Below are positions 12,158 to 42,360 of a DNA stretch of 64,000 nt, one piece after another. The position numbers and the translations under genes are program-made. Source of the stretch: Spiribacter halobius (GTDB lineage Bacteria > Pseudomonadota > Gammaproteobacteria > Nitrococcales > Nitrococcaceae). The stretch covers positions 3,588,501-3,652,500 of the forward strand of contig NZ_CP086615.1 in the NCBI RefSeq assembly GCF_020883455.1, written 5' to 3'. Under the pieces are notes generated by a model. The model was not told the DNA's origin, searched no databases, and worked only from the letters and a program-made list of their open reading frames with translations. Position 1 is the stretch's first letter. Every line of letters starts with the position of its first letter.

Positions 12158-12667
12158 GTGAAGGAGCTGATTCTCGGGGGCGTGCGTTCGGGCAAGAGCC
12201 GGCTCGCGGAAGGCCGCGCCGGCGAGGGCGCGGTAACCTATGTCGCCACCGCCCGGGTGGGCGACGCCGAGATGGCGGCGCGCATCGCCGACCATCGGGC
12301 ACGGCGGCCGGCACACTGGCGGACGGTGGAGTGCGGCGCAGGGCTCGCGGCCACCCTGCAGCGCGAGGCAGAAGCCGGGCGCTGCCTGCTGGTGGACTGC
12401 CTGACGCTATGGCTCACGGGCCTGCTGGAGCAGCCCGACGCCCTGGCAACGGAGCCCGACCGGCTGGTCGCGACGCTGCCGGAGCTGCCGGGCCACGTCA
12501 TCCTGGTGGGCAACGAGGTGGGCCTCGGTATCGTGCCCCTGGGCGAGGTGAGCCGGCGCTTCGTCGACGCCGCCGGCAGTCTGCATCAGCGCCTTGCCGG
12601 GGTTTGTGACCGGGTGACCCTGGTCGCCGCCGGCCTGCCGCTGACGCTAAAGGGAGAGGCATCGTGA
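12158..12667 (+). CDS. cobU: Bifunctional adenosylcobinamide kinase / adenosylcobinamide-phosphate guanylyltransferase
   Basis: Phosphorylates adenosylcobinamide, then transfers GMP to give AdoCbi-GDP. 169 residues with Walker [10 protein letters not shown] at residues 7-15, the DHRARRP segment carrying the guanylylated His, [12 protein letters not shown] and [13 protein letters not shown]. The start is GTG 12158 with GGGAGG 11 bases upstream. First gene of cobU-cobT-cobC-cobS, with overlapping or closely spaced junctions. I looked for a cobalamin riboswitch ahead of it and did not find the conserved boxes. Confidence 0.95.
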
Positions 12668-13689: not shown

Positions 13690-13706
13690 ATCCACGGAGC
13701 CTTCGC

Positions 13707-27925: not shown

Positions 27926-27947
27926 GCTTGCGGCGGGTGCAGACCTA
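27926..27947 (-). repeat. Half REP-like element at the cobQ stop codon
   Basis: On the minus strand cobQ ends AGG-TAG and continues GTCTGCACCCGCCGCAAGCG. This is the TAGGTCGGCACCCGCC head with one change and no clear return arm. Confidence 0.5.
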
Positions 27948-29411
27948 CCTGGGCGCTTGGCTCTGCCGTGAGCTGGCGAGCAGGGCATCAATATCGACAT
28001 GCTGCTCGAGCGTGTCGGCGAGGCGTTCGATACCCGCCTCGCGCAAGTCGGCCTGGTCCGGGAGCTCGAATGCCTCGAAGCCGCAGCGGGCGAGGAGGGC
28101 CCGGCGGGTCTCAGGGCTGTCGAAGAGGCCGTGGAGGTAGGTGCCGAGCACCCGACCGTCGGCGCTCGTGGCACCGTCCGGGCGTGAGCCGAGATCGGCG
28201 ACCGGGCGCAGGGTATCCGGGCCGTCGGTCTCGCCCATGTGGATCTCGTAGCCCGTCAGGGCCGTCGTCTCGGGGACGAGCTGGCCGCGGACGCGGTGCA
28301 GATGCTTGCTGGCACGCAGGCGGGTGGTCACTTCGAGCAGCCCCAGGCCCTCGCTGCTGCCCGCCTCGCCCTCGACCCCATCCGGGTCGTCGATGCGCTC
28401 GCCGAGCATCTGGTAGCCGCCGCAGAGGCCGATGACCGTCCCGCCGTAGCGCAGGTGCCGTTGCAGATAGGCCGGCCAGCCCTCGCGACGCAGCCAGGCG
28501 AGGTCCGCGCGGACGTGCTTGCTGCCCGGCAGCACCACCAGGTCCGCCGCCGGCGGGTGCTGGCCGGGGCCGACGAAGCTCACCGCGACGCCGGGCGTCA
28601 GCGCCAGGGCATCCAGGTCCGTGTGGTTGCTCATGCGCGGCAGCGCGGGCACGACGACGCGGAAGTCGGCCTCCGCGGTGGCGTCGCGGCGCGCCAGGCT
28701 GTCCTCCGCCTCCAGGTACAGCCCCTCCAGCCAGGGCAGCACGCCCAGCACCGGCTTGCCGGTGTAGCCGGTGAACCAGGCGAGCCCGGGATCAAGCAGG
28801 GACGGATCGCCCCGGAAGCGGTTGATGATCACGCCCTGCACCCGCGCCCGCTCGCTCTCCGATAGCAGCTCCAGGGTGCCCACCAGGGTCGCGAACACGC
28901 CGCCCCGGTCGATGTCCGCCACCAGCAGCACCGGACAGTCCACCGCCTCGGCGAAGCCCATGTTGGCGATGTCGTCGGCGCGCAGGTTCACCTCCGCCGG
29001 GCTGCCCGCGCCCTCGGCGACGATGATCTCGTACCGGGCGGCGAGCCGGCGGTGGGCGGCCAGCATCTCGGCCCGCAGGGCGCGCTTGCGGGCCTGATAG
29101 CCCCGGGCGTCCAGGTCTTCGCGTACCTGGCCGCAGACGATCACCTGGGCCGTGCGGTCGGCGGTGGGCTTCAGCAGCACCGGATTCATGTCCGAGTGGG
29201 GCTCGAGCCCGCAGGCGGCGGCCTGGGCCGCCTGGGAGCGGCCGATCTCGCCGCCGTCGACGGTGACGGCGCTGTTCAGCGCCATGTTCTGGGGCTTGAA
29301 CGGCGCCACCCGCAGGCCGCGGCGCCGGAATGCCCGGCACAGCCCCGTGGCGACGGCACTCTTGCCGGCGTCCGAGGTGCAGCCCTGGACCATGAGCGTC
29401 AGCGCCGTCAC
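27945..29411 (-). CDS. cobQ: Cobyric acid synthase (glutamine-hydrolysing)
   Basis: Amidates four side chains of adenosylcobyrinate a,c-diamide. 488 residues with the N-terminal ATP-binding [18 protein letters not shown], a middle dethiobiotin-synthase-like domain ([20 protein letters not shown]), and a C-terminal type I glutamine amidotransferase with the nucleophile Cys in [13 protein letters not shown] and the His in YLHGLFDSP. It starts at ATG 29411, overlapping the btuF stop. It is the last gene of the riboswitch-led operon. Confidence 0.95.
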
Positions 29412-30280
29412 GGCTGGACCTCGCGCACGCGCTGCAGATGCCGGCAGAGCCGCTCCGCGCCGTCCAGGATGCGCGGCCCGTGCCGCTGCAGCAGGTCCGG
29501 GTGGACATGGTAGAGATGGCCCTCACGCACGGCGCGCAGCCCCGGCCACTGCCGCCAGTCGTCGAGCCACTCCGGTCGCGAGGCGCCCATGCCGCTCGCC
29601 ACGATCGCCTCCGGATCGGCCCCGAGGACGGCCTCCCGGGTGATGCTCGGCGCCAGAGCGTCGGCCTCGGCGAAGGCGTTGCGGCCCCCGCACAGACGGA
29701 TGATGTCGCTGATCAGGTGCTCGCCGTTGACCGTCATCAGCGGCCGGTTCCAGATCTGGTAGAGGACCGTGACCGGCTCGGCACCGGCGTAGCGGCGGCG
29801 CAGGGCGTCCCATCGGGCCCGGAAGACCTCAGCGCGCTCGTGGCCACGCTCGCCGTGGCCGGTCAGCGTGCCGAGACGCTCCAGCGCCGCGGCGATGTCC
29901 GCCAGCGTGCGCGGCTCGCTGACATAGACCGGCACTTCCAGCTCCCGCAGGCGCTGGATGGTGCGCGTGCCGTTACCGCTGCCCCAGGCCACCACCAGGT
30001 CCGGGTCCAGAGCGACGATGCGCTCCAGGTCCACGGCGTCGTAGCCGCCGACACGGGGCACCTCGCGGGCGGCGGGCGGATAGTCGCTGTGACTCACGGC
30101 ACCCACCACCTGCTCGCCGGCGCCAACGGCGAACAGCAGCTCGGTGGCATGGGGCGCGAGGCTGATCACGCGCTGCGCCGGCGCGGGCAGCTGCAGCCGC
30201 TGGCCGGCGTCATCCACCACCTCGACGGCGGCCGCCGCCAGCAGCGGCCAGCACAGCAGCGCGAGCCACGCCCACCTCAT
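29408..30280 (-). CDS. btuF: Cobalamin ABC transporter substrate-binding protein
   Basis: 290 residues with an N-terminal signal peptide ([17 protein letters not shown]). Class III binding-protein features are [32 protein letters not shown] in fragments ([19 protein letters not shown]) and [21 protein letters not shown] partner for the BtuCD genes at 40.6-42.4 kb is plausible. ATG 30280 lies at the cobD junction. The frame continues upstream to 31213, but that part is a shadow of cobD. It overlaps cobQ by ATGA. Confidence 0.92.
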
Positions 30281-31275
30281 GCGCCGGCCTCCCGGCGCGC
30301 GGCGGGCAGAGCGTCCGCCAGCCGTGACCAGGCGGCGCCCTCGTCCGGCGGCAGCCCGATGCGCAGCCCCTGCGGCTCGCGGAAACGCCGCACCAGAATC
30401 GCGCGCCGCGCGAGCGCGGCGGCAAGCGCATCCGGCGCCGACAGCGGTGCCCAGGCGTAGAGGTCCGTACCGCCCTCGGCGGCCAATCCGGCGTCGGCGA
30501 GCAGGGCGCGCAGACGGGTCGCCGCGGCCGCCAGCTGCCGGCGCTGGCGCGCCTGCCAGGCCGTGTCCGTCAGTGCCGCGGCGGCCACCATGCGTGCCGG
30601 CCCCGCCACCGGCCAGGGCCCTGCGAGCTGGTCCAGTGCCGCGCGCACGCCGGCGGCGGCGCCCACGAAACCGACCCGGGCACCCGCCAGGCCGAAGAAC
30701 TTGCCCATGGAGCGCAGCACCACCAGCCCCTCGCTGCCGGCATCGCCGATGACGCTTACCTCCGGCGCCACGTCGGCGAAGGCCTCGTCCACCACCAGCC
30801 AGCCGCCCCGCCCCATCAGGGACGCCTGCCAGCGCCGCAGGCGCGCCACCGGGACGTGGCGGCCGGTGGGGTTGTCCGGGTTGACGACGACGACCACGTC
30901 GGCGTCGCTCACGGCCTGTTCCAGCCCGCCGGGCCGGTACTCGCTCACGCTGTGACCGGCGCGCCGCCAGGCCGCCGCGTGCTCGGCGTAGCCCCCGGCT
31001 GGGCAGGCGACGAGGCCGGGCGCCCGCAGCCAGGGCAGCAGGCCGATGGCCACCTGGCTGCCGGCCACCGGTGTCAGGGCAGCGGTGCCGTAGTACGCCT
31101 CGGCGGCGGCGAGCAGCCCGTCCTCGGGTTCCGGCAGGCGGCGCCATGCCTCGGCAGGCAGGGCCGGCGGCGGATAGCCCGTGGGCGCGATGCCGGTGGA
31201 GAGGTCCAGCCACTCCCCTGCCGGGATGCCGTGCTTTCGCGCCGCGGCCTGCAGGCGCCCGCCGTGCTCAAGCAA
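30277..31275 (-). CDS. cobD: Threonine-phosphate decarboxylase (aminotransferase fold)
   Basis: Makes (R)-1-amino-2-propanol O-2-phosphate for the nucleotide loop. A 332-residue class I/II aminotransferase-fold protein with [26 protein letters not shown], and the PLP lysine in [16 protein letters not shown] chose TTG 31275, which starts [16 protein letters not shown], the usual family N-terminus. It has GGGGGAGG 9-10 bases upstream and overlaps the cbiB stop. The extra 40 codons upstream overlap cbiB and are not conserved-looking. Confidence 0.9.
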
Positions 31276-32173
31276 GGAGCGCCCCTCCCCCGATCGCGAG
31301 CAGCCAGACGACCAGCGTGCGGTGGACCAGGGCCATTGCCCGCTGGATATCCGCGCCCGCCGGCCCCTCACCCGCGCCCAGCACCGGCCGCTCACGCCGC
31401 GTGCCGTGGTAGACGGCCGGCCCGCCGAGGCGCAGGCCGAGGGCGCCGGCGCCGGCGGCCATCACCGGTCCGGCGTTCGGGCTCTCCCAGGCCGCCGCCT
31501 GGGTGCGCCAGGCGCGCAGGGCGCCCCGGGTGCGACCGGTGAGCGCATAGCCCAGTGCCGTCAGCCGGGCCGCAGGCCAGTTGAGGACGTCGTCGGCCCG
31601 GGCGGCGAAGCGCCCGAAGGTGCCGAAGCGCTCACTGCGATAGCCCCACATGGCATCCAGCGTGTTCGCCAGCCGATAGGCAACGACGCCGGGGGCGCCC
31701 GCCAGCACGAACCAGAACAGCGGCGCGAACACCGCGTCCGCCCCGTTTTCCAGCACGGACTCCACCGTCGCCCGGGCGCAGCCCTCGGCGTCCAGCGCCG
31801 CGGTATCGCGGCTGACCATCCGCCCGCTGGCCGCCCGCGCCGCGTCCAGATCGCCATCGGCCAGCGCTGCGGCCACCGGCCGGGCGTGCTCGTCGAGGCT
31901 GCGCCCGCCCAGGGCAAGCCAGAGCAGCAGCAGCGAGATCGCCATGCCCGGCCAGCCCGGCAGCGCCCCAAGCACCGCCGCCAGCGCCGTGGCCGGGAGC
32001 ACCAGCAACGCCCAGGCCGCCGCGCCGCGCCAGGCATTACCGGCGTGCAGCGGGCGGTTCCAGCGCCGCTCCAGCGCCTCCGCCAGCCGGCCGAACCCCG
32101 CCAGCGGATGCGGCCGCGGCTCCGGGAGCAGGCGGTCGAGGGCGACGGCGGCGAGGGCGATCAGGGCAGTCAC
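31268..32173 (-). CDS. cbiB: Adenosylcobinamide-phosphate synthase
   Basis: An inner-membrane enzyme that attaches the aminopropanol arm to cobyric acid. 301 residues from GTG 32173: [24 protein letters not shown] in pieces ([19 protein letters not shown]), then [47 protein letters not shown] and the C-terminal membrane segment. An upstream in-frame ATG at 32269 is rejected because the intervening codons are the CTTGCAA heptamer repeat. The ribosome-binding site is weak. It overlaps cobD by 8 bases. Confidence 0.9.
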
Positions 32174-32182
32174 GGGTCGGCG

Positions 32183-32335
32183 GAGTTGCAGGTTGCCAGT
32201 GGCAAGTTGCAAGCAGGAACTCGATACGCGGTCGGCAGGGTCTGTAACACTGACCATGACGCCATACACGGCTTAATGAGCCGCGGCGCTCCGATTCGGG
32301 CTCGCCTGCCACTTGCAACCTGGGACTTGTAACTC
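32183..32335. repeat. Heptamer-armed inverted repeat between cobO and cbiB
   Basis: Left arm 32183-32219 (GAGTTGCAGGTTGCC, GGCAAGTTGCAAGCAGG) and right arm 32306-32335 (CCTGCCACTTGCAACC, GGACTTGTAACTC) are imperfect inverted copies built from a CTTGCAA-like heptamer. They enclose about 85 bp of lower-GC sequence. The left arm forms the leader of cbiB. The same design occurs at 33291-33432. Confidence 0.6.
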
Positions 32336-32360
32336 GAGCTGTGAGCAGAGCTCATAGCTC
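32336..32360 (-). repeat. 11-bp-stem hairpin over the cobO stop codon
   Basis: On the minus strand GAGCTATGAGC, loop TCT, GCTCACAGCTC: 10 of 11 pairs plus one G-T wobble. The cobO stop TGA (32352-32354) lies inside the first arm, so the last codons V-E-L and the stop belong to the palindrome. Confidence 0.65.
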
Positions 32361-32957
32361 GACCCCCTTCTGCGCCTTCACCCCCGCGCGAAACGCGTGC
32401 TTGACCATCTTCATCCAGCTCACGGTGTCGGCGGCCTCGATCAGGGCGTCCGGGGCGCGGCGGCCCGTGACGACGACGCTCTGCATGCGGGGGCGGGCCT
32501 GGAGGACGGCGAGGACGCGATCCAGCTCCAGGTAGCCCTTGTCGAGCACGATGTTGAGCTCATCCAGCAGCACCAGCTGCAGGGTATCGTCCGCGAGCAT
32601 GGCCTCCGCGCGCTGCCAGGCCGCCTCCGCGGCGGCCACGTCGCGCTCGCGGTCCTGGGTCTCCCAGGTGAAGCCCTCGCCCATGACGTGATAGTCCACC
32701 TCCGGGAAGCGGCGGAAGAAGGCCTCCTCCCCGGTGCTGAAGCTGCCCTTGATGAACTGCACCACCCCCACCCGAAAGCCGTGGCCAAGCGCCCGTGCCA
32801 CGGTGCCGAAGCCCGCCGTGCTCTTGCCCTTGCCGTTGCCGGTGTTCACCACCAGCACGCCGCGGTCCTCCGTGGCCCGCGCCACACGCTCGTCGACGAT
32901 GCGCTTCTTGCGCGCCTGCGCCGCCCGCCAGGCCTCGGGGTCGTGATCTTCAGCCAT
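32352..32957 (-). CDS. cobO: Cob(I)yrinic acid a,c-diamide adenosyltransferase
   Basis: Adds the 5'-deoxyadenosyl group to reduced corrinoids. 201 residues of the BtuR/CobO family with the ATP-binding P-loop VNTGNGKGKSTAGFG near residues 36-50, VVQFIKGSF, TLQLVLLDELNIVLDKGYL and SVVVTGRRAPDALIE. It starts at ATG 32957, 8 bases inside the DUF2149 gene. It follows the exported CobN module in the riboswitch operon. Confidence 0.95.
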   Translation of the reverse strand: MAEDHDPEAWRAAQARKKRIVDERVARATEDRGVLVVNTGNGKGKSTAGFGTVARALGHGFRVGVVQFIKGSFSTGEEAFFRRFPEVDYHVMGEGFTWETQDRERDVAAAEAAWQRAEAMLADDTLQLVLLDELNIVLDKGYLELDRVLAVLQARPRMQSVVVTGRRAPDALIEAADTVSWMKMVKHAFRAGVKAQKGVEL

Positions 32958-33249
32958 CGTCCTCTCCCACCATGATCAGCCTGCCCGTCTCCGGGTCCCG
33001 ATAGACGCGGCCCACCGGCTCCATGCCGGCCCCGCCCTCGCCGTACACGCCTGCCGGCGGCTCGGCGAGCTCCTCACCCCGCTCCACCACCTCACGCCCC
33101 GTCAGCACCTCGCGCAGATCGTCGCTGCGCGCCGCCAACGCCACCAGCAGCCCGCAGATGAACACGAGCATGATATCGGTGAGATTGGCCAGGGGACCCA
33201 TGGGGTCGGTTTCCTGGGTGTCGAAGCGGGTCTGGGTGAGCCTTTTCAT
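32950..33249 (-). CDS. DUF2149 protein, ExbD/TolR-like single-pass membrane protein
   Basis: 99 residues. It has a short cytoplasmic N-terminus, then LANLTDIMLVFICGLLVALAA at residues 21-41 as one transmembrane helix, then a 55-residue periplasmic tail rich in Gly/Glu. TDIMLVF mirrors the ExbD/TolR motif (PLVDVMLVLL), placing an Asp at the start of the helix where ExbD and TolR carry their essential proton-relay Asp. DUF2149 genes are known next to ExbB-like and CobN-like genes. It lacks the usual ExbD periplasmic domain length. Likely partner: the ExbB-like protein just upstream. Confidence 0.85.
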   Translation of the reverse strand: MKRLTQTRFDTQETDPMGPLANLTDIMLVFICGLLVALAARSDDLREVLTGREVVERGEELAEPPAGVYGEGGAGMEPVGRVYRDPETGRLIMVGEDDG

Positions 33250-33290
33250 AGCGCCTCTCCGGGGCGGGTACTAGCGACGCTTCATAGCGT

Positions 33291-33432
33291 CGAGTTGCAA
33301 GTTTCAAGTTGCGAGTTGCAAGCTCCAGGACCGGCGCCCAAACACCGTAACCGCGACATTGGCGCCAGCTTCTGCAGCACCCGTTGAAGCCGGTGCATTC
33401 GAACTTGCAACTTGCAACTTGCAACTTTGAAC
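33291..33432. repeat. Heptamer-armed inverted repeat between exbB-like and DUF2149 genes
   Basis: Left arm 33291-33324 (GAGTTGCAAGTTTCAAG, GAGTTGCAAGCTC) and right arm 33400-33432, which contains three tandem CTTGCAA heptamers, are inverted relative to each other around about 75 bp. A separate small hairpin GACGCT-TCAT-AGCGTC lies at 33275-33290, just upstream of the DUF2149 start. Confidence 0.7.
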
Positions 33433-33437
33433 TGCGG

Positions 33438-33481
33438 CTGCTGGAGGCGCTGGGCGCCTAGGCGCCCAGCGCCTCCAGCAG
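33438..33481. repeat. Perfect 44-bp palindrome over the exbB-like stop codon
   Basis: The sequence from 33438 to 33481 equals its own reverse complement, centred on CCTAGG. The right half encodes LLEALGA and the TAG stop of the ExbB-like gene; the left half is an exact inverted copy lying after the stop. No T-run follows on the minus strand, so it is not a standard intrinsic terminator. Confidence 0.95.
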
Positions 33482-33895
33482 ACCCTCGTACCACCGCCGC
33501 CGCAGCCGCCCGATGACGAAGGCGATGGCGCCGGCCAGCAGGCCGACGACGGTGGTGTCGAAGGCGACGGTGACGGCAGTGGCGAGGACGTCCAGCTCGC
33601 CGCGGCCGAGGGCGGCAAGGCCGGGGCCGAGGGGGATCAGGGTGCCCATCAGGCCAAGCATCGGCGCGAGCCGCGCCACCAGGTCCACCCGCTCGATGCG
33701 CCGTCGCGCCAGCGCCTCCACCCGCGCCGGATCCGCTCCGGCCGCAAGCCGGCGCAGGCCGCTAAAGCGCTCGCCCACCGCCGTGCCGCTATCCCAGACG
33801 CACACCACCACCGCCACGCCCAGCGCCACGAGCACCGGCTCCAGCAGCAGTCCGGTGAACCCGTGCAGCAGCGTAACCAGGGGACTGTCCAGCAT
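33458..33895 (-). CDS. MotA/TolQ/ExbB-family proton channel protein
   Basis: 145 residues, three transmembrane helices. One is near the N-terminus ([17 protein letters not shown]); two are in the conserved C-terminal channel region [19 protein letters not shown] and [20 protein letters not shown]. The Pro-x-LGLxGT and the TT pair are the hallmarks of ExbB and TolQ. ATG 33895 has GAGGAGAG upstream, 18 bp after the cobN stop. With the DUF2149 protein it should form a proton-driven motor serving the exported CobN or the BtuB receptor. Confidence 0.9.
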
Positions 33896-33913
33896 GCCCG
33901 TCTCTCCTCAGTT

Positions 33914-36900
33914 TCAACCGGCGGCGCGGGCGCCCCGCCAGGCGCCCCCGGCGAGCAGCACCACCACCAGCCCGGCAGCCGTCCAGCGCCACGCGCCGAC
34001 GGCTGCGAATGGCTCTCCGCCATGCTCCGGTTCGCCCGCGGCAGTGCTGCGGCCGTCCCGGCGCGCCGGGGGCTGCCCGCCCGCCGCGTCCGGCCGCTCT
34101 TCTTGCAGCGGCGCGATCTCGGTCACCGTGGTGAGGGTCGTCGCCTCCGCGTAGGGCTCGCCACGCGCCGAGGCGAGCTCCGCCTCGAAGGCCTCGCGGG
34201 TGGCGGCGTCGAGCCGCTCAGCAACGGCCTTCAGCATCGGGTGGTCCGGCGCCGTGTGGCCGCTGCCCGGCAGCCCGTGCTCGATGATGCCCTCGGCGAG
34301 CTCCCGGGAGAGGGCCTCCAGGCGCGCCTCGCCGGGCTCCCAGAAGCCCCGCTCGGCGGCCACCAGCAGCACGGCCCTCATCTGCAGGCCCACGGCCGCA
34401 TGGCGCTTCCGGTCGAGGAATTCATCCACGCCGAGACCGTGGGCGTCCTGGAAGTAGACCCGGTCCACGGCCTCCCAGGCGCTCGCCCCCACCAGCTCCG
34501 GGCTCGTCACCTGCCAGCCCCAGAGGTTCTCCAGAAACCCGGTGCCGAAGGTGCGCGCCCCGGCATAGCCGTGCGCCAGCAGCGGCTCGATCCAGGCGGG
34601 GTTGAGGTAGCGCCCCCGCAGCTCCTGGCCGAGGGCGGTCTCCAGGGGCCGGAGTGCGGGTGCCTGCGGATCCGAGAGGTCGACGATACGCCCGCGGGGC
34701 GGCTCGCCGGTGAGGGTCTCCACGGCGAGCCCGAGGCCGCCCAGGTAGTCGAAGGCGTCATTGTTGTCGAGCAGGCCGTAGAGGTGGCTCGCCCGACCCA
34801 GGTAGCTGCGCCGCACCCGCTCGAGCGCGCCGCGGAAAGCCTCGCCGGCGGGCTCGCCGTAGGCGTCCGCGCCATAGGCGTGGCCGAGACGGCCGAGGTA
34901 GGCCTCGCCCAGCTCGCCGCGCGCCTCCCAGGCGCCGGAGCGCTCGGCGAGGGTGTTGATGCCGGCGCCGTAGCTGCCAGGCGCGTCGCCGAAAACCCGG
35001 CGCACGGCCTCGCGGCCGGCGGCGGCCGGTGGCTCTCCCGCGGCCAGGGCCGCACGGGCGTCCGCCACCCAGTGGGCGGCGAGCCGGTTGCGCTCCAGGG
35101 GCTCCGAGCCCGCCTCGCCTGTTCCGTCGAGCGGGGCCAGCGCCGCCTCCAGCGCGGGCACCAGCGCCGGGTGCCGCGCGCGAATGGTGGCCGCCGACCC
35201 CTGCAACGCCAGGCGCACCGCCCGATCCACGAGCTCGAGCAGGTTGCCGTACAGATCCCGGAACAGCCCCGAGGTGGTGAACACCACGTCCCGTCGCGTG
35301 GCGTCGTTGGCGAGGGGCACCCGGCGCAGGCCGCTGACGATGCCGCGGCTGTTCCACTCCGGCGCCACACCCAGCAGGGACAGCCCGAAGCCCACCATGG
35401 CGCCCTCGTCCCGCACGGTGTCCGAGGCCCAGAGCACCACCGCCTCGCTGCCGCTGCCGCCCCGTGCGCGGGCCTCCGCGGCCATCTCCGCGCCGAGCTC
35501 GTAGCCCACCCGGGTGGGCAGCAGGCTGCCGTCGAGGGCGTGGAAGTTTCGCCCCGTGGGCAGGACGTCCGGATTGCGTACCGGGTCGCTGCCTTCCCCC
35601 GGGCGCACGAAACGCCCGTCCAGCCCGCCGAGAAGGGCCTCGCGCTCGGCCGCCGGCGAGGCCGCCAGCGCCTCCCCCCAATGCGGCTCGGGCTCGCCGT
35701 CACCGGCCATGGATTCGAGCATGAGCCCGCGGTCGGCCTGGGTCCAGTCGGCGCCGAAGACGTGCAGCCCGCTCGGCATGAACTGCTCCTGCAGCTCGGT
35801 GAGATAGTGCCCGACCTCGTGCACCACCAGCTCCGGCTCCAGCTCGTCGAGGCGCGCCTCGGGCCAACCGAACTCCTCGGCGATGGCGGTCTCGAGCTCC
35901 CCGCGCAGATCCAGGGCGTCAAGGCGCTCGCGCAGGCGGCGGAAGGCACGCTCCCGGGCGGCACCGCCCGCCGCGCCCGCTTCCCAGGACTCCACGAGCT
36001 GACGCAGGCCGAGCAGGTCGTCGTAGAGGGGCGTGGTGCGCAGCGGCGGCGTGAGATGGTCGACGATCACGGCGAGCCCGCGGCGCTTGGCCTGCAGACC
36101 CTCGCCGACGCCATCGACGATATAGGGGTAGATCCCCGGCAGGTCGCCGGCAACCAGATCGGGGTAGTCGTCCGGCGCAAGTCCCGCGCGGCGGTGAGGC
36201 AGGAACTCGTAGGTGCTATGGCGCCCCAGATGCACCACCGCATCCGCAGCGAAGCCGTCCCGCAGCCAGTGGTAGAACGCCAGATACTGATGCGGCGGCG
36301 GCATGCCGAGGTTGGCGTGCAGGGCCTCCTCGCCTTCGTGCCATCCCCGCGGCGGCTGCGGGCCGATGAAGACGTTGCCGAAGGTGAGCCCGGGAAAGAC
36401 GAAACGCCCGTCATGGACCATGACGCGCCCGGGCGGCTCGCCCCAGCCGCCGAGGCCCGGCACGCCGGTGCCGCGAATCGCCTCGATGAGCGAGGCCGCC
36501 ACCTGCCAGTCCGGCCGGTGGGCCTGATAGAGGTCATCCAGGCGCTCCAGCAGCTCCGCCGCCCGATCACGGCCGGGGTGATCCAGCTCCCGCAGCAGGG
36601 CGCGCAGATCGCCAAGGACCGCGCGTCGCAGGTCGTCGGCAAGCCCCGGCTCACCCGCGCGGCGGGCGTCCCGCAGGCGCTGGTGCAGGCGGCCCAGAGG
36701 GCCGGCGCGCAGCTCCCGGCGCACCGATGCTGGCTGGCTGTCGAGCCACTCGCGGTAGGTGTCCGCGGGCATGCCCGGCACCTCGGCAGCCATGCCTGCC
36801 AGGGCCGCTGCGTCCTCGGGGAGGTTGACGCCCCGCGCCAGCAGCCGATCGGTCAGCGCCCCGACATCCGCCGGCAGCTCGCCGACGTCGTAGCCGGCAG

Positions 36901-38215
36901 CGTCGAGGTCACGCAGGATCCGCAGCAGCGAGGCGGGCACGTCGAGGTTGTCCGCACCGAGGTTCTGACGGCCCGGCGGATGATTGTAGAAGACGATGGC
37001 GATGCGTTTATCGGCATTCGGCTTGCGCCGCAGCGCCGACCAGCGTGCCAGGCGACCCGTCAGGCGCTCGACGCGCTCCGCATCCGGCTCGGTCACGGCA
37101 ACGCGCAGGCCCGTGGCCTCATGGACGCGCGCCTCGGTGCTGTGGGCGAGCACCATGGGCTGGCTGACCCCCTGCAGCTCCGGCATGGCCACCCGCCAGT
37201 GGACGTCGTCGGCGGGGATACCGTCGGCCGAGAGGCGCCACTGGTCCCGGGTACGCTCGTCGAGCCGGATGCCCTGGAGCACCGGGACGTCCAGCGCCTG
37301 CAGCGCCGCCGTCGCCTCGGCGCGGCCATCGCCACCGCCGATGACGAATCCCTGCAGCGAGACCAGCGCCGCCAGGGGCGCCTTGCCGGTCAGCCGGGAC
37401 AGGCGCTCGAGGGCGGCGACACTGGCCTCGCCCCAGCGCGCCAGCAGCACCAGGCACTGCAGATCGCGCTCGGCCAGGGCGTCACAGACGCTATCGAGCA
37501 GCGCCCGGTCACCCAGACGATCGCCGGTGTCGTGATCGAGCACGGCCACCACCGGGCGTTCCGGATCCAGGCTCAGCTCCCCGGCGGCAACCACCGCGCC
37601 GTCATGATAGAGGCGCAGCGGCGCCCGCGGCTGTGGCGGCGGCGCCTCGCGGCCGAGCAGCCAGGCAAACAGGGCCGCAAGATTCTCCGGGCTGCGGCCC
37701 TGCCAGTAGGCGAGTCCGGTGAGCCAGAGTGCCTGGTCGGGATGGTCCGCGGCCAGGCGCTCACGGTGGGTGACAGGGTCCTCGTCCGCCGCGGGATTGC
37801 CCGTAAGCTGATCGATGGTCTCGGTCTCGAGACCGGCCAGCGGCCGGCTCTCATCCAGCCGGCTGCTTCGGGTCAGCCGCCGGTCGCCGCTTACGGCCAG
37901 AAGCCGTGACGGGGGCGCCTCCCGCGCAAGCCGCAGCAGCCGGCCGACCACTGCGTCCTCGAACACGGCGCCCAGCAGCACGGCATCCGCGGCGCGCCAG
38001 TGCCTTGCAAGCGTCTGCTCGTCCATGCTGCGCACCTGGGCCTCGGTGCGGAGGATGATCTCGTCCGCCGGCTGGGCGTCCAGATGCCGCTCGGCCGCCG
38101 CAGCAGCGCCTGCTGCGGACCGCTCGGAGATCACGCCAAACAGCGTCTTCGCCCCGGCACCGGACACGAGGCCCAGTACCAGGGCGATGACAGCTGCGGC
38201 ACGCAGCGCGATCAC
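33914..38215 (-). CDS. cobN: CobN-like chelatase subunit with export signal and C-terminal membrane anchor
   Basis: 1433 residues from GTG 38215 (GTGA overlap with btuB). Residues 1-22 form a signal sequence (AAVIALVLGLVSGAGAK), unlike cytoplasmic CobN. CobN/BchH-family landmarks are NHPPGRQNLGADNLDVP (411-427), FGNVFIGPQPPRGW (612-625), VHLGRHSTYEFLP (661-673) and DLPGIYPYIVDGVGEG (691-706). After about residue 1370 comes a Pro/Gly/Glu-rich linker, then a transmembrane helix (AAGLVVVLLAGGAW, about 1412-1425) and a short basic tail. Canonical CobN inserts cobalt with the CobS/CobT ATPases; neither is in the window. I infer a periplasmic, membrane-tethered corrinoid chelatase or dechelatase. 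Confidence 0.88.
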   Translation of the reverse strand: MIALRAAAVIALVLGLVSGAGAKTLFGVISERSAAGAAAAAERHLDAQPADEIILRTEAQVRSMDEQTLARHWRAADAVLLGAVFEDAVVGRLLRLAREAPPSRLLAVSGDRRLTRSSRLDESRPLAGLETETIDQLTGNPAADEDPVTHRERLAADHPDQALWLTGLAYWQGRSPENLAALFAWLLGREAPPPQPRAPLRLYHDGAVVAAGELSLDPERPVVAVLDHDTGDRLGDRALLDSVCDALAERDLQCLVLLARWGEASVAALERLSRLTGKAPLAALVSLQGFVIGGGDGRAEATAALQALDVPVLQGIRLDERTRDQWRLSADGIPADDVHWRVAMPELQGVSQPMVLAHSTEARVHEATGLRVAVTEPDAERVERLTGRLARWSALRRKPNADKRIAIVFYNHPPGRQNLGADNLDVPASLLRILRDLDAAGYDVGELPADVGALTDRLLARGVNLPEDAAALAGMAAEVPGMPADTYREWLDSQPASVRRELRAGPLGRLHQRLRDARRAGEPGLADDLRRAVLGDLRALLRELDHPGRDRAAELLERLDDLYQAHRPDWQVAASLIEAIRGTGVPGLGGWGEPPGRVMVHDGRFVFPGLTFGNVFIGPQPPRGWHEGEEALHANLGMPPPHQYLAFYHWLRDGFAADAVVHLGRHSTYEFLPHRRAGLAPDDYPDLVAGDLPGIYPYIVDGVGEGLQAKRRGLAVIVDHLTPPLRTTPLYDDLLGLRQLVESWEAGAAGGAARERAFRRLRERLDALDLRGELETAIAEEFGWPEARLDELEPELVVHEVGHYLTELQEQFMPSGLHVFGADWTQADRGLMLESMAGDGEPEPHWGEALAASPAAEREALLGGLDGRFVRPGEGSDPVRNPDVLPTGRNFHALDGSLLPTRVGYELGAEMAAEARARGGSGSEAVVLWASDTVRDEGAMVGFGLSLLGVAPEWNSRGIVSGLRRVPLANDATRRDVVFTTSGLFRDLYGNLLELVDRAVRLALQGSAATIRARHPALVPALEAALAPLDGTGEAGSEPLERNRLAAHWVADARAALAAGEPPAAAGREAVRRVFGDAPGSYGAGINTLAERSGAWEARGELGEAYLGRLGHAYGADAYGEPAGEAFRGALERVRRSYLGRASHLYGLLDNNDAFDYLGGLGLAVETLTGEPPRGRIVDLSDPQAPALRPLETALGQELRGRYLNPAWIEPLLAHGYAGARTFGTGFLENLWGWQVTSPELVGASAWEAVDRVYFQDAHGLGVDEFLDRKRHAAVGLQMRAVLLVAAERGFWEPGEARLEALSRELAEGIIEHGLPGSGHTAPDHPMLKAVAERLDAATREAFEAELASARGEPYAEATTLTTVTEIAPLQEERPDAAGGQPPARRDGRSTAAGEPEHGGEPFAAVGAWRWTAAGLVVVLLAGGAWRGARAAG

Positions 38216-40002
38216 TGAGCAGCGGGCTCCCAGGTCAGGGTCACGAAGCCGGTACGGCCTGCGGTCTCGAAGCCGGCGACGCTCTGGTACTCCCGGTCGA
38301 AGGCGTTGTCCACGCTCAGCCGAAGGCGCCAGTCCGGAGCGAACCGGTACCCGGCCCCGAAACCGGCCACCGCGTAACCACCGAGGCGCTCATCCCCGTC
38401 CGGCCGCGGGCCGACGTAGCGCAGGTCGGCATCCAGGGCCCAGGGGCCGAGATCGCGCTCGACGCGCAGGGACGCGAGGCGCTGGGGCCGGCGGTTGAGC
38501 CGCTCGCCGGTGTCCCTGTTCTCCGGATCCTGCAGGGTCAGCGCCGCCTCCGCGCGCCAGGCCGGACGAGCGAATTCCAGGGTGAGTTCGGCGCCGCGGA
38601 TGCGTGCCTCGCTCACGTTTTCGTTGCGGAAGGTGGTGGAGTCGTACTGAATGAGGTCATCCACTTCGGTGTGGAACGCCGCCAAACCCCAGCCGAATCC
38701 GCCGGCTTCGCCTTCGAGCCCGGCCTCGGCGCTCCTGGAGCGTTCGGGGTCGAGATCGGGATTCCCGGAGAAGAATCCGACGTTGGGGTAGTAGAGATCG
38801 TTGAACGTCGGTGCCCGAAACGCACTGCCGGCGCTGACGAAGCCGCGCACGCTCTCCGTGAAGGCGTATCCGACCGCGGCGCTGCCCGTCGTGGTCTCGC
38901 CGAAGGCCTCGTTGTCGTCGTGGCGCAGGCCCGCCTGCAGGTCCCAGCGGCCGAGAAACCACTGCTGCTGGGCGAAGACGCCGAGGTTGTCACGTCGGCT
39001 CTCTTCGAAGTCGAGATTGCTCGTGACCTCGTCGCGGTACCAGTCGACGCCGAAGGTGGTGATCACGTCGCGATAGCGGGCCGTGGTCTGCAGCGACGCC
39101 TGGTCACGATCGGTGGTGAAGCGATCGCCGTCTGCGGCGCGACTGTCGCTGTCGTCGCGGGCGCGTCCCAGCGCCAGGGTCATGTCCCACCGGTCAGTCA
39201 CCCGGTAATCGGCGGCAACGCTAAGGGCCTGATTGACGTTCTCCGTCTCGTCCGGGCCGCCTAAGGTCGGCGAGGCGTCGAACTCCACCTCGCTGTCATT
39301 ACGCAGCAGGCTGCCCCGGAGTGTCAGACGTGAACTCGGTGCGTACTCGCCGCGCAGGCTGACATTGCGCTCCTCGTAGCCGTCGTCGTCCGTGTCGCTG
39401 CCAGCCGCCTCCTGGACGTCGAAGCCGTCCGTGCTGAAGCCCCCGGCGGAGAGGCTCAGGCGGCCGTTCTCGAACTCGCGGCCAATGCCGGCGGAGAGGC
39501 TGCGGCTGTCGCGGCTGCCAGCGCCGAGGGTCACATGAGTATCGTTCGCCCGGGTGAAGATCTGCACCACGCCGCCGACCGCATCCGCGCCGTATAGCGT
39601 GGAGCGCGGCCCGCGCACCACCTCGATGCGCTCGATCCGGGCCAGCGGAATGCTCTCGAGCGCCGCGCTGCCCGCCGTGGCCGAGGCGACGCGAACGCCG
39701 TCGATGAGCACCAGCGTCTGATCGCTGTTGGTGCCGCGCAGGAACAGGCTGGTGCTCTGGCCGCGCCCACCGTTGCGTGCGATGTGCACACCCGGGAGCT
39801 CGGCGAGCAGATCCGGAAGATCCTGTGGCTGGCGCCGCTCGATGTCTTCGCGGGTAATGACCGAAACGCTGGCGAGCGTCTCGTCAGCAGTGAAGGGGTT
39901 GCGGTTGGGAGTGACCAGCAGTGGCTCCGTGGTCTCGGCCGCACTGGCCAGGAGCGGGCACGCAGCCAGCGCTGCGCCCGCGAGGAGGCGTCGGATCGTC
40001 AT
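38212..40002 (-). CDS. btuB: TonB-dependent vitamin B12 receptor
   Basis: A 596-residue outer-membrane receptor. The signal peptide (LAGAALAACPLLASAAE) is followed by a TonB box region EPLLVTPNR, the plug (DETLASVSVITREDIERRQ; DLPDLLAELPGVHIARNGGRGQ) and the barrel. Length is close to E. coli BtuB (594 mature). The last strand reads GFVTLTWEP and the protein ends PAAQ, not in the usual terminal aromatic residue. ATG 40002 has GGGAG upstream. A cobalamin riboswitch lies directly upstream, which confirms the ligand class. Confidence 0.95.
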   Translation of the reverse strand: MTIRRLLAGAALAACPLLASAAETTEPLLVTPNRNPFTADETLASVSVITREDIERRQPQDLPDLLAELPGVHIARNGGRGQSTSLFLRGTNSDQTLVLIDGVRVASATAGSAALESIPLARIERIEVVRGPRSTLYGADAVGGVVQIFTRANDTHVTLGAGSRDSRSLSAGIGREFENGRLSLSAGGFSTDGFDVQEAAGSDTDDDGYEERNVSLRGEYAPSSRLTLRGSLLRNDSEVEFDASPTLGGPDETENVNQALSVAADYRVTDRWDMTLALGRARDDSDSRAADGDRFTTDRDQASLQTTARYRDVITTFGVDWYRDEVTSNLDFEESRRDNLGVFAQQQWFLGRWDLQAGLRHDDNEAFGETTTGSAAVGYAFTESVRGFVSAGSAFRAPTFNDLYYPNVGFFSGNPDLDPERSRSAEAGLEGEAGGFGWGLAAFHTEVDDLIQYDSTTFRNENVSEARIRGAELTLEFARPAWRAEAALTLQDPENRDTGERLNRRPQRLASLRVERDLGPWALDADLRYVGPRPDGDERLGGYAVAGFGAGYRFAPDWRLRLSVDNAFDREYQSVAGFETAGRTGFVTLTWEPAAQ

Positions 40003-40131
40003 GCAATGCTCCCAGGTCGCGCCACCCGCGCGACGGTGTCGTTCTAGGTCTCATGCGGGAGCAGAGCGGGGCACGCAGCGACGCGGCGCGTCGGACGAGC
40101 CCGGGCGCCGCCTCCCGCAACGCTGGGCCAA

Positions 40132-40332
40132 CGTCTCCAGGCCGGTCTCCGGGCTTGCGAGCGGGTGGGTGATCACCCCGGCGCCGCGCCTTCCCGGACC
40201 CGAGGGCCCAGTGGCAGATTGCGACGCCTTGTCTCGCCTACCGTTGCGGGGGCAGCGCCGGACTTGCCGTCTGTGACGGCGCACCGGCTTCCCGTTCAAC
40301 CCCTGGGCCGGGTGGCCACGGGGCACCTGAAG
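40132..40332 (-). promoter_or_regulatory. Cobalamin riboswitch
   Basis: Read on the minus strand: GGTGCCCCGTGG at the 5' end, AACGGGAAGCCGGTG, the core GCGCTGCCCCCGCAACGGTA, GCCACTGGGCCC, and the B12 box AGCCCGGAGACCGGCC at the 3' end. These are the conserved boxes of the class I cobalamin riboswitch, in the right order over about 200 nt. It lies about 130 nt before the btuB start. Cobalamin binding should repress btuB and the nine-gene operon behind it. Confidence 0.95.
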
Positions 40333-40349
40333 CGATAATGGCGCCGGGA

Positions 40350-40378
40350 ACAGTAGCGGCCCGTGGGCGGGGGGTCAA
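40350..40378 (-). promoter_or_regulatory. Sigma70-like promoter for the riboswitch operon
   Basis: On the minus strand TTGACC (40378-40373), exactly 17 bases, then TACTGT (40355-40350). This places transcription start near 40343, about 10 nt before the riboswitch. The match to the -35/-10 consensus and the position agree. Confidence 0.75.
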
Positions 40379-40597: not shown

Positions 40598-41365
40598 TCA
40601 GGCCGGCAGGAAGGCGCGGCGCCCGTCAGCGCTGAGGCAGCGCACCGGGTAGCCGTAGAGCCGGGTGAGATGGGTCTCGTCCAGCACGGCCTCGCGCCGG
40701 CCGAGATCGTGGCGGCCGTCGCCGTGGAGCAGCAGCACATGGTCCGCGAAGCGGTCGGCGAGGTTGACGTCGTGCAGAGTCATGACCACCGCCCCGCCCT
40801 GCTCCCGGGCGCGGGCACAGAGCAGCTCCAGCAGGCGTACCTGGTGGGGCAGGTCGAGATGGTTCGAGGGCTCGTCCAGCAGATACAGCCGGGGCGCCTG
40901 GGTCAGCAGCGTGGCGAAGGCGAGCCGCCGGCGCTCGCCGCCGGAGAGCGTGCCGACGTCCCGGCCCTCGAACCCTGTGAGGCCCGCGTCCGCGAGTGCC
41001 CGCCGCGCCCGTCGCTCGTCCTCCCGGCTCTCCCACTGCCAGGCCCGAAGCCAGGGATGGCGGCCGATGAGGGCGGTCTCCAGGACGGTCGCCGGAAAGG
41101 GGTCGAGGCTGTCCTGCGGCAGCACGCCCACCTGCTGGGCCAGTGCGCGGCGGGGCCAGAGGGCGAGGCCGCGCTGCGCCACCTCGATCGTACCCGCCGC
41201 CGGCGCGTGCAGCCCGGCCAGGGTGTGCAGCAGCGTGGTCTTGCCAGCGCCGTTGGCGCCGAGCACACACCAGCATTCGCCCGGCGCCACCGTGAGGTCG
41301 AGCGCCTGGCAGATCCCGCGCCCGCCGATGGTCACGGCCAGCCCCCGGGTGGCGAGCAGGGTCAT
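40598..41365 (-). CDS. btuD: Vitamin B12 ABC transporter ATP-binding protein
   Basis: 255 residues. Walker A LGANGAGKTTLLHTLAG, Q-loop VLPQDS, signature LSGGERRRLAFATLL, Walker B LYLLDEPSNHLDLPHQ and switch HDVNLADRFADH. ATG 41365 overlaps the btuC stop by ATGA. The open frame upstream to 42202 is a shadow of btuC. I assign B12 rather than iron specificity from the neighbouring riboswitch and btuB. Confidence 0.9.
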   Translation of the reverse strand: MTLLATRGLAVTIGGRGICQALDLTVAPGECWCVLGANGAGKTTLLHTLAGLHAPAAGTIEVAQRGLALWPRRALAQQVGVLPQDSLDPFPATVLETALIGRHPWLRAWQWESREDERRARRALADAGLTGFEGRDVGTLSGGERRRLAFATLLTQAPRLYLLDEPSNHLDLPHQVRLLELLCARAREQGGAVVMTLHDVNLADRFADHVLLLHGDGRHDLGRREAVLDETHLTRLYGYPVRCLSADGRRAFLPA

Positions 41366-42360
41366 GGTCCGGCCCCCGTCGCCGCCGGGCGCCCCCGGTG
41401 CAGCAGGAAAAGGAAGACGGGAACCCCGATAAGCGCCGAGAGCACGCCCACCGGCAGCTGCTGCGGGGCGAGCACGGTGCGCGCCAGGGTGTCCGCGAGG
41501 GTGAGGAAGCTGCCGCCGGCCAGCACGCAGGCGGGCAGCAGCAGGCGATAGTCGGTCACCCCGGCGAGCCGCAGCATGTGCGGCACCACCAGCCCGACGA
41601 AGCCGACGCTGCCGGCGAGGGTAACCGCCGCCGCCGTGAGCAGGGAGGTCAGCCCGAACACGGCGAGCCGCAGCCGGCCGACGGCGACCCCGAGCACCCG
41701 CGCCTGTACCTCGCCGCGGGCCAGCAGATTCAGGCTGCGCGCCAGCGCCATGGCCGCCATGAGTCCCGTGAGCAGCACGGCCGCCCGCAGTCCGGGCCCG
41801 CCGGCGCCGCTCAGGTCCCCCATCAGCCAGAACAGCATGCCGCGCAGCTCCGCCTGTGGTCCCACGGCGAGGAGAAAGCTCACCACCGCGCCCCAGCCCG
41901 AGGCCACCACCACGCCGTTCAGCAGCAGCCGCGCGGGCGTCCAGCCGCCGCGGCCGTGGGCCAGGCCGAAGACCATGAGCATGGAGGCGAGCGCGCCGAG
42001 GAAGGCGCTGCCGGAAACGGCGCCGGCGCCGAGCCCCGCCATCATGGACAGCAGCGCGCCCACCGCCGCCCCGCCGGAGAGCCCTAGGACGTAGGGATCG
42101 GCCAGCGGGTTGCGCAGCAGGACCTGCATCAGGGCCCCGGCGAGGGCCAGCAGTCCACCGGTGGTGAACGCGCTCGCCGCCCGGGGCAGGCGAAGCTCCC
42201 ATATCAGGGTGCCGGCCATGCCGGCAGCGGGATCCAGCAGCCCGGCGAGCAGCGCCGAGGGCCGCAGCACCACGCTGCCAAACGCGCCGGCAGCCCCCAC
42301 GGCCACAAGCGCGATCAGCGCCAGCGCCGGCAGGAGCACGAGCGCGCGTGTCTGCCGCAT
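41362..42360 (-). CDS. btuC: Vitamin B12 ABC transporter permease
   Basis: A 332-residue FecCD/BtuC-family permease with about ten helices. Motifs: WELRLPRAASAFTTGGLLALAG in pieces (ELRLPRAASAFTTGG), LMQVLLRNPLADPYVLGLSGG and GSVGFVGLVVPHMLRL. It begins 5 bp after the trmB stop, so it may be read from the thiS-thiG-trmB transcript rather than from the riboswitch. Confidence 0.9.
   Translation of the reverse strand: MRQTRALVLLPALALIALVAVGAAGAFGSVVLRPSALLAGLLDPAAGMAGTLIWELRLPRAASAFTTGGLLALAGALMQVLLRNPLADPYVLGLSGGAAVGALLSMMAGLGAGAVSGSAFLGALASMLMVFGLAHGRGGWTPARLLLNGVVVASGWGAVVSFLLAVGPQAELRGMLFWLMGDLSGAGGPGLRAAVLLTGLMAAMALARSLNLLARGEVQARVLGVAVGRLRLAVFGLTSLLTAAAVTLAGSVGFVGLVVPHMLRLAGVTDYRLLLPACVLAGGSFLTLADTLARTVLAPQQLPVGVLSALIGVPVFLFLLHRGRPAATGAGP

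Follow-up and report, generated by a model that had tools for sequence, protein, structure and literature searches.

The stretch of DNA analysed here (64,000 nucleotides of the Spiribacter halobius contig NZ_CP086615.1, hereafter referred to as the window) contains a cobalamin riboswitch followed, in this order, by btuB, a gene for a CobN-type chelatase subunit, genes for an ExbB-like and a DUF2149 protein (with cobN, the trio), and cobO, cbiB, cobD, btuF and cobQ, all on the minus strand (Table 1). The open reading frames confirm the gene order of the original prediction, which had placed the riboswitch boundary at 40378; its actual end is at 40345. The btuB and cobN genes overlap by 4 bases, cobN and the exbB-like gene are 18 bases apart, and the DUF2149 gene overlaps cobO by 8 bases. 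In the window, 208 bases with a repeat element separate the exbB-like gene from the DUF2149 gene, whereas in most relatives the two abut or overlap.

Table 1. Features of the window, with positions counted from its first nucleotide.
Feature	Position	Strand	Match
Cobalamin riboswitch aptamer	40123..40345	-	RF00174, 98.5 bits, E 2.3e-23
btuB, TonB-dependent B12 receptor	38212..40002	-	TIGR01779, 541.9 bits, under cut-off 599.7
CobN-type class I chelatase large subunit, export-like N-terminus and C-terminal anchor (1433 aa)	33914..38215	-	PF02514, 810 bits
ExbB/TolQ-like three-helix protein, proposed proton-channel part	33458..33895	-	PF01618, 39 bits, cut-off 22.9
DUF2149 protein, proposed ExbB partner	32950..33249	-	PF09919, 38.7 bits, cut-off 27.1
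cobO, corrinoid adenosyltransferase	32352..32957	-	
cbiB, adenosylcobinamide-phosphate synthase, start uncertain	31268..32269	-	
cobD, L-threonine-phosphate decarboxylase, start uncertain	30277..31395	-	TIGR01140
btuF, periplasmic corrinoid-binding protein	29408..30280	-	
cobQ, cobyric acid synthase	27945..29411	-	
btuC, corrinoid ABC permease, upstream	41362..42360	-	
btuD-like ABC ATPase, upstream, start uncertain	40598..41371	-	
cobT (DMB phosphoribosyltransferase), cobC, cobS; nucleotide-loop genes, not chelatase CobS/CobT	12664..15076	+	

Exported relatives of CobN have already been described as HmuS and BtuS (PMC12583661, PMC6460266, PMC10434189, PMC13227078). Purified HmuS is reported to release iron from heme in an NADH-dependent reaction without a motor (PMC12583661; NADH dependence in vitro also in PMC13227078), so that the motor is not needed for the chemistry of heme dechelation; the former report assigns HmuU/HmuV to the powering of HmuR. 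BtuS was introduced by Rodionov in 2003 as a third CobN type, with a proposed role in metalloporphyrin salvage (via PMC6460266). The hmuYRSTUV architecture with which the original prediction compared the window agrees with the account in PMC10434189. Like the window, these Bacteroidota systems, including BtuS1/BtuS2 of Bacteroides fragilis, encode a CobN-family protein having an export signal and a membrane anchor alongside a TonB-dependent receptor, an ExbB-like protein and a DUF2149 protein. Unlike them, the window has a cobalamin riboswitch and B12 genes in place of hmuY/hmuR and lacks an HmuT-like gene in the interval from btuB to cobO. The tree, built without Bacteroidota HmuS, sets window-type CobN in a different clade from the HmuS-like rows of Gammaproteobacteria. 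In 2012, a cobN beside exbB-exbD-tonB and near B12 genes, with no CobST reported, was described on plasmid pSZ77 of Trichlorobacter (Geobacter) lovleyi (PMC3403914). That account proposes a transport role and leaves DUF2149 unnamed; the plasmid record reads DUF2162-ExbB-DUF2149-CobN, and its CobN is 31.7% identical to that of the window. Motor-driven cobalt insertion is proposed nowhere in the literature that our searches returned.

The window CobN matches PF02514 over its whole length and retains the superfamily histidine, as expected of a member of the CobN/ChlH class I chelatase superfamily. As judged by hydropathy, the basis of all our export and anchor calls, it has a hydrophobic segment near the N-terminus and another at residues 1403–1421 (hydropathy 1.69), followed by a short basic tail. 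Because the plain hydropathy maximum failed to separate N-termini (6 of 19 cytosolic rows reached 1.8 or more), we replaced it with a measure that bars charges, namely a 13-residue uncharged hydrophobic stretch with a mean of at least 1.6. Such a stretch occurs in 11/11 aligned B12-type rows, 6/6 HmuS-like rows, none of the 19 cytosolic CobN/BchH rows, and 72 of 80 related loci (two contigs begin within the gene), counts that are approximate because the ORF starts are uncurated. The C-terminal segment separates the groups cleanly, the 19 cytosolic rows reaching at most 0.51. Both features support the earlier claim of an exported, anchored CobN.

Residues H666, E705 and D1153 of the window CobN are conserved (A1 numbering is that of the full protein minus one, A1 H665 being H666). 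All 78 rows agree with HmuS at H538 and E577, and the active-site motif GTHG of HmuS reads GRHS in window-type CobN. The second axial histidine of HmuS (H1209 of LSLDHxxEFMGG) is Asp in window-type CobN and in 53/53 B12-type rows; this position does not separate chelatase types, since Asp also occurs in 4/6 HmuS-like rows, besides 12/19 cytosolic rows.

The ExbB-like protein was modelled with a pLDDT of 93.8, and the top PDB matches of the model were ExbB and TolQ chains, at weak Foldseek E-values (best 0.01). D25 of DUF2149 is invariant in 20/20 B12-type rows; in a wider set the position is Asp in 20/21 and Glu in one. The pair thus resembles ExbB-ExbD-TonB and TolQ-TolR-TolA in having a three-helix ExbB-like protein with conserved residues and a partner with a single helix and a conserved Asp. 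It differs in that DUF2149 has 99 aa without the ExbD-type periplasmic fold, and in that the trio includes no TonB/TolA, the proposed load being the chelatase. The link of DUF2149 to ExbD rests on one helix: hhalign against five ExbD/TolR-like rows gave a weak match (28 columns, probability 9.9%), and the low-confidence model (mean pLDDT 66) consists of helices and a small C-terminal hairpin; neither analysis detected full-length ExbD homology or a periplasmic fold. The host genome yielded four TonB_C matches, of which three have an ExbB-family match less than 3 kb away, and T. lovleyi encodes ExbB-DUF2149-CobN and a separate exbB-exbD-tonB set within one array. M. acetivorans lacks an outer membrane; it matches DUF2149, MotA_ExbB and CobN (family matches, adjacency aside), with no TonB_C match. 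The pair tracks exported CobN rather than TonB, in line with its original assignment to CobN.

The co-occurrence search that had been suggested was carried out on 369 genomes of the class. DUF2149 scored above the cut-off in 20 of them, and all 20 have CobN, which overall occurs in 41/369; a chance association was therefore rejected. (A DUF2149 match in genome G294 fell below the cut-off and was dropped; its region, L044, has no CobN hit.) We then counted neighbours in 80 loci, not all independent, since L039/L046 and L040/L048 are apparently the same genomes and L138–L142 overlap other loci. ExbB follows CobN within 1.5 kb in 63/63 non-Marinobacter loci, DUF2149 is also present in 61 of these, the remaining two running off the contig, and every one of the 62 CobN proteins measured has the anchor segment (CobN of L085, split into two frames, gave no value). 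In contrast, anchor, ExbB and DUF2149 are lost together in 17/17 Marinobacter loci, which keep a riboswitch-linked exported CobN. The eight Marinobacter tree rows form one clade within the trio group, and we treat the loss as one evolutionary event. A riboswitch lies upstream on the same strand in 64/80 loci, directly before cobN in 23, as scored with a model (R1) built from hits within these families; none was found upstream in 14/80 loci or upstream of 8 HmuS-like loci. An Rfam scan of ten loci found no upstream riboswitch in L033 and L034; the short contig L037 was left out of Rfam scans and A1. In many loci btuB, btuF and btuCD neighbour the trio, BluB (nitroreductase-family) homologues occur in 35/106 loci, and in Runella the trio adjoins hypCDE. 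The window DUF2149 protein gave no match in plasmid records, a search that is too insensitive, since DUF2149 is present in the records of T. lovleyi and Runella.

CobN and ChlH, as characterised, are ATP-driven class I chelatases of the cytosol. The complete host genome encodes one CobN and one DUF2149. It gave no match to CobS, CobT or CbiC, and scores for a ChlID-type partner did not rise above background (24.7 bits at most). The absence of CobS/CobT from the window thus extends to the genome; a dedicated pair elsewhere, which would have spoken against the original prediction, was sought and not found, and on this ground we dropped the idea that CobN is cytosolic and served by an overlooked CobST or ChlID. 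The AAA+ partner TIGR02442, the only model used for relatives, scored 278–807 bits in 18/18 cytosolic CobN/BchH genomes and at most 48 bits in 25/25 exported-CobN genomes, with a strong partner in 0/25 (fragmented G191, G195 and G295 left out). Window-type CobN therefore shares with cytosolic CobN-CobS-CobT, or with CobN having ChlI/ChlD-type partners, the family, the active-site His and Glu and, in four trio relatives, aerobic B12 neighbours; it differs in its export-like N-terminus and anchor (by hydropathy), its ExbB/DUF2149 genes and the lack of any AAA+/VWA partner in our searches. CobW was found in 5 of 8 cytosolic-CobN regions (the survey covered 8 of 18 such genomes) versus one of 98 stretches from B12-type genomes, as a 33% match. 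CbiC had no match in 30 of 36 genomes (L061 left out), the host included, so that these 30 probably make no ring; the window genome accordingly shows no sign of the late (aerobic) cobalt-insertion pathway by this marker.

In four genomes (two of one genus), Thioalkalivibrio sp. ALJ24 among them, CobG and other aerobic ring genes adjoin the trio, and in all three of the four that were searched for it the trio CobN is the only CobN found. Of 106 loci, none but these four has an ABC-2 permease; CobG was present in just one of 8 cytosolic control regions. In Zoogloea (L101), the trio has as neighbours CbiM, a gene resembling CbiX/CfbA (61 bits, cut-off 120) and ring genes, CobG not being among them, so that its role is not confined to de novo synthesis. 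The original prediction had left open whether cobalt is inserted or removed. Since the trio is found in the aerobic, late-cobalt-insertion clusters of four relatives, insertion is favoured, as the probable direction.

With moderate confidence, we propose that the trio forms a class I chelatase in the periplasm that acts on corrins, is coupled to proton-motive force and probably inserts cobalt. The original interpretation is partly supported. We infer its location, motor coupling, substrate, direction and export step as follows. The signal sequence would direct CobN out of the cytoplasm, and a single helix at its C-terminus would tether it to the membrane. Together, the ExbB-like protein and the helix of DUF2149 that carries the conserved Asp would form an ExbBD/TolQR-like proton motor, which may act on CobN via the C-terminal anchor, replacing CobST or ChlID. 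The substrate would be a corrin, and the most likely reaction the insertion of cobalt into metal-free or incomplete corrins. In a salvager such as the host, BtuB would import corrins for subsequent handling by BtuF-BtuCD, CobO and CobQ; in the four aerobic-pathway relatives the substrate may be the ring that they make themselves, which the ABC-2 transporter of the cluster might export. More tentative is the complete cycle, in which a metal-free corrin, either self-made and exported through ABC-2 or scavenged via BtuB, would receive cobalt in the periplasm from CobN driven by ExbB-DUF2149 and return via BtuFCD. Several observations speak against the favoured reading. HmuS, the nearest characterised exported relative, runs in the opposite direction as described and works without a motor, and Marinobacter keeps an exported CobN without motor or anchor, so that the motor may not be strictly required. 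Zoogloea pairs the trio with a CbiX-like route of early cobalt insertion. Further points on this side are the missing CbiC match of most genomes tested, the loci without an upstream riboswitch, the weak DUF2149-ExbD alignment and Foldseek E-values, and the single cytosolic control region with CobG.

The neighbouring btuB, btuF and btuCD, the place of the trio within the B12 regulon and the missing CbiC of most genomes tested would also suit an escort rather than an enzyme, with the exported CobN binding BtuB-imported corrinoids and passing them to BtuF while the motor opens its cleft for release. We consider this rather unlikely, since no row lacks the chelatase His and Glu and the trio lies within CobG clusters, its CobN being the sole one found in the three genomes searched for it. 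Removal of cobalt or of a wrong metal from periplasmic corrinoids, after the manner of HmuS, would agree with the activity reported for that relative (PMC12583661), with the use of the same trio in hmu operons (PMC10434189) and with the hypCDE genes beside the Runella trio, which suggest metal acquisition. It appears improbable, because a salvager would gain little from breaking down corrinoids while B12 is scarce, the condition under which the riboswitch is permissive, and because the trio occurs in aerobic synthesis clusters; the Asp in place of the second axial histidine is shared by most HmuS-like rows and does not separate the types. The NADH dependence of HmuS, the adjacent cobO and the BluB homologues would be compatible with a CobN that alters the upper ligand or the redox state of corrinoids being taken up, without metal exchange; we know of no such activity in the CobN family, and regard this as very improbable. 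Finally, the frequent adjacency of btuB and the published role of HmuU/HmuV might suggest that ExbB/DUF2149 energise BtuB in place of ExbBD-TonB with CobN as an unrelated passenger, an idea that we reject as scarcely credible on the TonB_C sets of the host and the double array of T. lovleyi, and against which the M. acetivorans matches, the riboswitches directly before cobN and the tracking of the CobN anchor by the pair also argue.

If the trio is indeed a motor-coupled periplasmic chelatase for corrins, cytosolic cobalt delivery (CobW) and ATPase partners would be dispensable, and proton-motive force would power metal chelation in a manner common to HmuS-like and Ni-linked systems. The chelatase would be a new kind of load for the ExbB/TolQ motor family, and DUF2149 and HmuU/HmuV would gain a function. 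The Marinobacter lineage provides a natural motor-less comparison. Genomes with the aerobic B12 pathway but without a recognised AAA+ partner would have a means of cobalt insertion, and many B12 ‘salvagers’ may begin from metal-free rings.

The operon in the window has the layout of the original prediction: open reading frames and profile matches place, after a cobalamin riboswitch, btuB, a CobN-family gene, an ExbB-like gene, a DUF2149 gene, cobO, cbiB, cobD, btuF and cobQ, in this order on the minus strand. Neighbouring genes in the btuB-cobO stretch overlap or almost touch, the sole exception being a gap of 208 bases between exbB and the DUF2149 gene, which contains TTGCAAC repeats and an inverted repeat extending into exbB (see table). 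The CobN protein (1433 aa) has a hydrophobic N-terminus, a single hydrophobic C-terminal segment and a basic tail; in the PDB it matches chains of CobN, HmuS and ChlH. The nucleotide-loop genes cobT, cobC and cobS, distinct from the chelatase subunits CobS and CobT, are also within the window, where a sigma-70 factor and a FecR-type regulator adjoin them (15364-16810).

Coordinates of features in the window and in a fetched locus
Feature	Location	Strand or source	Remarks
Cobalamin riboswitch	40345-40123	minus strand	98.5 bits
Repeat CTTGCAACTTG, nine near copies	window 32203-33428		0.26 expected in whole window; in and near gaps of the cob operon
Perfect 22-base inverted repeat, loopless	window 33438-33481		at the exbB end
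DUF2162 predicted transporter	L171 3618-4319	T. lovleyi plasmid	directly before ExbB-DUF2149-CobN

The host genome, a single 4.17 Mb contig with a stated completeness of 100%, contains a single CobN gene, matched in three pieces, and one DUF2149. The original prediction invoked a CobN working without CobS and CobT, and no such pair was found elsewhere in this complete genome: CobT (PF06213) and CobS (TIGR01650) had no match, and for the ChlID-type partner (TIGR02442) there were two weak hits, neither above 24.7 bits. CbiC (PF02570) was likewise unmatched, and the host therefore probably makes no corrin ring.

We then compared 43 genomes for TIGR02442: 18 with cytosolic CobN/BchH (of 21; three fragmented ones were excluded) and 25 with exported CobN, comprising 13 of the B12 type (resembling the window protein), 2 of a Pseudomonas type, 4 from Marinobacter and 6 HmuS-like, that is, related to the heme dechelatase HmuS. 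The cytosolic group scored 278-807 bits in 18/18 genomes and the exported group at most 48 bits in 25/25. ChlID homologues were encoded in seven and CobW in five of eight cytosolic-CobN regions; among 98 stretches of B12-type genomes, some of which overlap, there was no ChlID and one CobW (33% identity), and eight HmuS-like loci had neither. The features by which the window CobN was predicted to be exported and C-terminally anchored are absent from the 19 cytosolic proteins of the 18 genomes, none of which has a C-terminal segment (hydropathy at most 0.51) or an uncharged hydrophobic N-terminal stretch of at least 1.6. A tree separated cytosolic from exported types with 98% SH-aLRT, by a quick method and with long branches and uneven composition flagged. 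Judged by these searches, exported CobN is without an AAA+ partner, and it is a well-supported reading that the ExbB/DUF2149 pair would stand in place of such partners.

Exported CobN, the ExbB-like gene and DUF2149 behave as one unit. Among 369 genomes, DUF2149 matched in 21 and CobN in 41, and all 20 genomes with DUF2149 above the cut-off had CobN. The 20 DUF2149 regions fetched contained a B12-type CobN in 11 cases (46-60% identity to the window CobN) and an HmuS-like one in eight (about 27-32%); in the remaining region, whose match lay below the cut-off, no CobN was found. A scan of GTDB genomes yielded 291 relatives, and the best 80 loci, which were retained, came from gamma- and betaproteobacteria, Nitrospirae, Nitrospinae and Myxococcota. 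An Rfam scan detected the cobalamin riboswitch in 8/10 B12-type loci (all except L033 and L034) and in 0/3 HmuS-like loci. With a second model, built from the first riboswitches found, an upstream riboswitch on the same strand was seen in 64 of these best 80 loci, within 700 bases of cobN in 23 of them; it was not found in 14, and in two the contig starts too near cobN. The same model found none in eight HmuS-like loci.

Within the best 80 of the 291, an ExbB-like gene followed CobN within 1.5 kb in 63/63 loci from outside Marinobacter, DUF2149 was present in 61 of these 63 (the other two leave the contig end), and a C-terminal hydrophobic segment of at least 1.22 was found in all 62 CobN proteins measured. 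The 17 Marinobacter loci lacked all three: the segment (at most 0.53), and ExbB and DUF2149 at the locus. Their CobN retained the N-terminal hydrophobic stretch (1.58 in one, at least 1.85 in 16). Eight Marinobacter rows formed a single clade nested in the group carrying the trio of exported CobN, ExbB-like and DUF2149 genes, so that on this tree the absence is one loss, not seventeen. The joint retention and loss of anchor and motor points to the CobN anchor as the probable contact with the motor, and the Marinobacter loci, retaining CobN alone, show that a predicted exported CobN can persist without a motor at its locus. The anchor-less Marinobacter proteins (e.g. L051, L060 and L078) often have a tail with two cysteines, NDxCQ...C.

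The structure model of the ExbB-like protein is confident (pLDDT 93.8) and had ExbB and TolQ chains as its best PDB matches (best E 0.01, TM 0.68). DUF2149 has one hydrophobic helix with D25, which is invariant in 20/20 B12-type rows; with T. lovleyi and Runella included, the position is Asp in 20 of 21 rows and Glu in one. The motif is like that of ExbD/TolR, whereas the profile match is weak, and no ExbD-like periplasmic fold appeared in the DUF2149 model, which is poor (pLDDT 66). In CobN, H666 and E705, corresponding to H538 and E577 of HmuS, are invariant in 78 CobN-family rows; changing H538 abolished HmuS activity (PMC12583661). The position of HmuS H1209 is Asp (D1153 in the window) in 53/53 B12-type and Marinobacter rows. 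Since Asp also occurs in 12/19 cytosolic and 4/6 HmuS-like rows, this position alone would identify neither the metal nor the ring.

The authors of the HmuS study take HmuU and HmuV to power the receptor (PMC12583661), and we considered the ExbB/DUF2149 pair as a TonB energiser. This role was rejected: T. lovleyi has both sets, its plasmid carrying receptor-DUF2162-ExbB-DUF2149-CobN adjoining exbB-exbD-tonB-receptor, and the control archaeon Methanosarcina acetivorans, with genome-level matches to DUF2149, MotA_ExbB and CobN, had none to TonB_C. Among three further control archaea, CobN was matched in M. jannaschii and H. volcanii, and none of the three matched DUF2149 or MotA_ExbB. The host of the window has seven MotA_ExbB matches and four TonB_C matches, three of the latter less than 3 kb from a MotA_ExbB match; it therefore probably has no need of the pair to serve TonB. 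On a Runella slithyformis plasmid (L172 4399-9387), ExbB-DUF2149-CobN lies beside a TonB receptor, a 'urease accessory' protein and hypCDE, possibly a nickel-linked version of the trio.

As to the reaction, CbiC was looked for in 36 genomes whose exported CobN is of the B12 type, counting Marinobacter among them: 30 gave no match and six did. In G089, G121, G236 (the last two of one genus) and Thioalkalivibrio ALJ24, the trio clusters with CobG, CobH, CobI, CobJ, CbiD, CobA, CobB and cobO; in G236, CobM, CbiE/CbiT, CobU and cobQ are close by as well. CobG was not found in the stretches fetched from the CbiC-matched Zoogloea and Duganella genomes. CobG is a marker of the oxygen-dependent route; there, cobalt enters late, at hydrogenobyrinic acid a,c-diamide, through CobN and ATP-using partners (PMC7689651, PMC8123684). 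In G089, G121 and G236 no CobN besides the exported one was found, and TIGR02442 gave only background in all four CobG-cluster genomes. Each of the four has an ABC-2 exporter-type pair between cbiD and cobG; permease homologues (77-91% identity between genomes) occurred in 8/106 loci, every one from these genomes, and in 0/8 cytosolic-CobN regions, including the one with CobG. The post-ring enzymes CobB and CobQ were present in 43/92 and 36/92 loci, respectively; the window has CobQ and lacks CobB. The reaction is most likely cobalt insertion, and the CobG-trio clusters and post-ring enzymes fit insertion into finished rings that the cell has either made or scavenged. Cobalt would be inserted into the corrin in the periplasm, the ABC-2 pair may act as exporter in the CobG clusters, and re-import would follow. 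Zoogloea counts against the finished-ring reading: with CbiM, a CbiX/CfbA-like gene and ring genes downstream, its trio should be unneeded for de novo insertion and would thus serve salvage. A second cobalamin riboswitch precedes the CbiM cobalt-uptake gene directly downstream of this trio (L101 13203-14257).

A 2025 study showed NADH-dependent iron removal from heme by HmuS of B. thetaiotaomicron (PMC12583661), and the roles of HmuT, HmuU and HmuV are left open in PMC13227078. BtuS1 and BtuS2 of B. fragilis, named for a third CobN type (BtuS) credited to Rodionov 2003, influence heme-iron use, although protoporphyrin was still freed when both were mutated (PMC6460266); two BtuS proteins occur in M. 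barkeri (PMC10846266). The T. lovleyi cobN was reported earlier, with the lack of CobST noted and transport suggested (PMC3403914). A proton-driven CobN was not found proposed in the literature searched, in which subscription journals are mostly outside coverage. Both AAA+ replacement and cobalt insertion are proposals from comparison; as judged from sequence, the trio is a real, widespread and B12-regulated variant of exported CobN systems.
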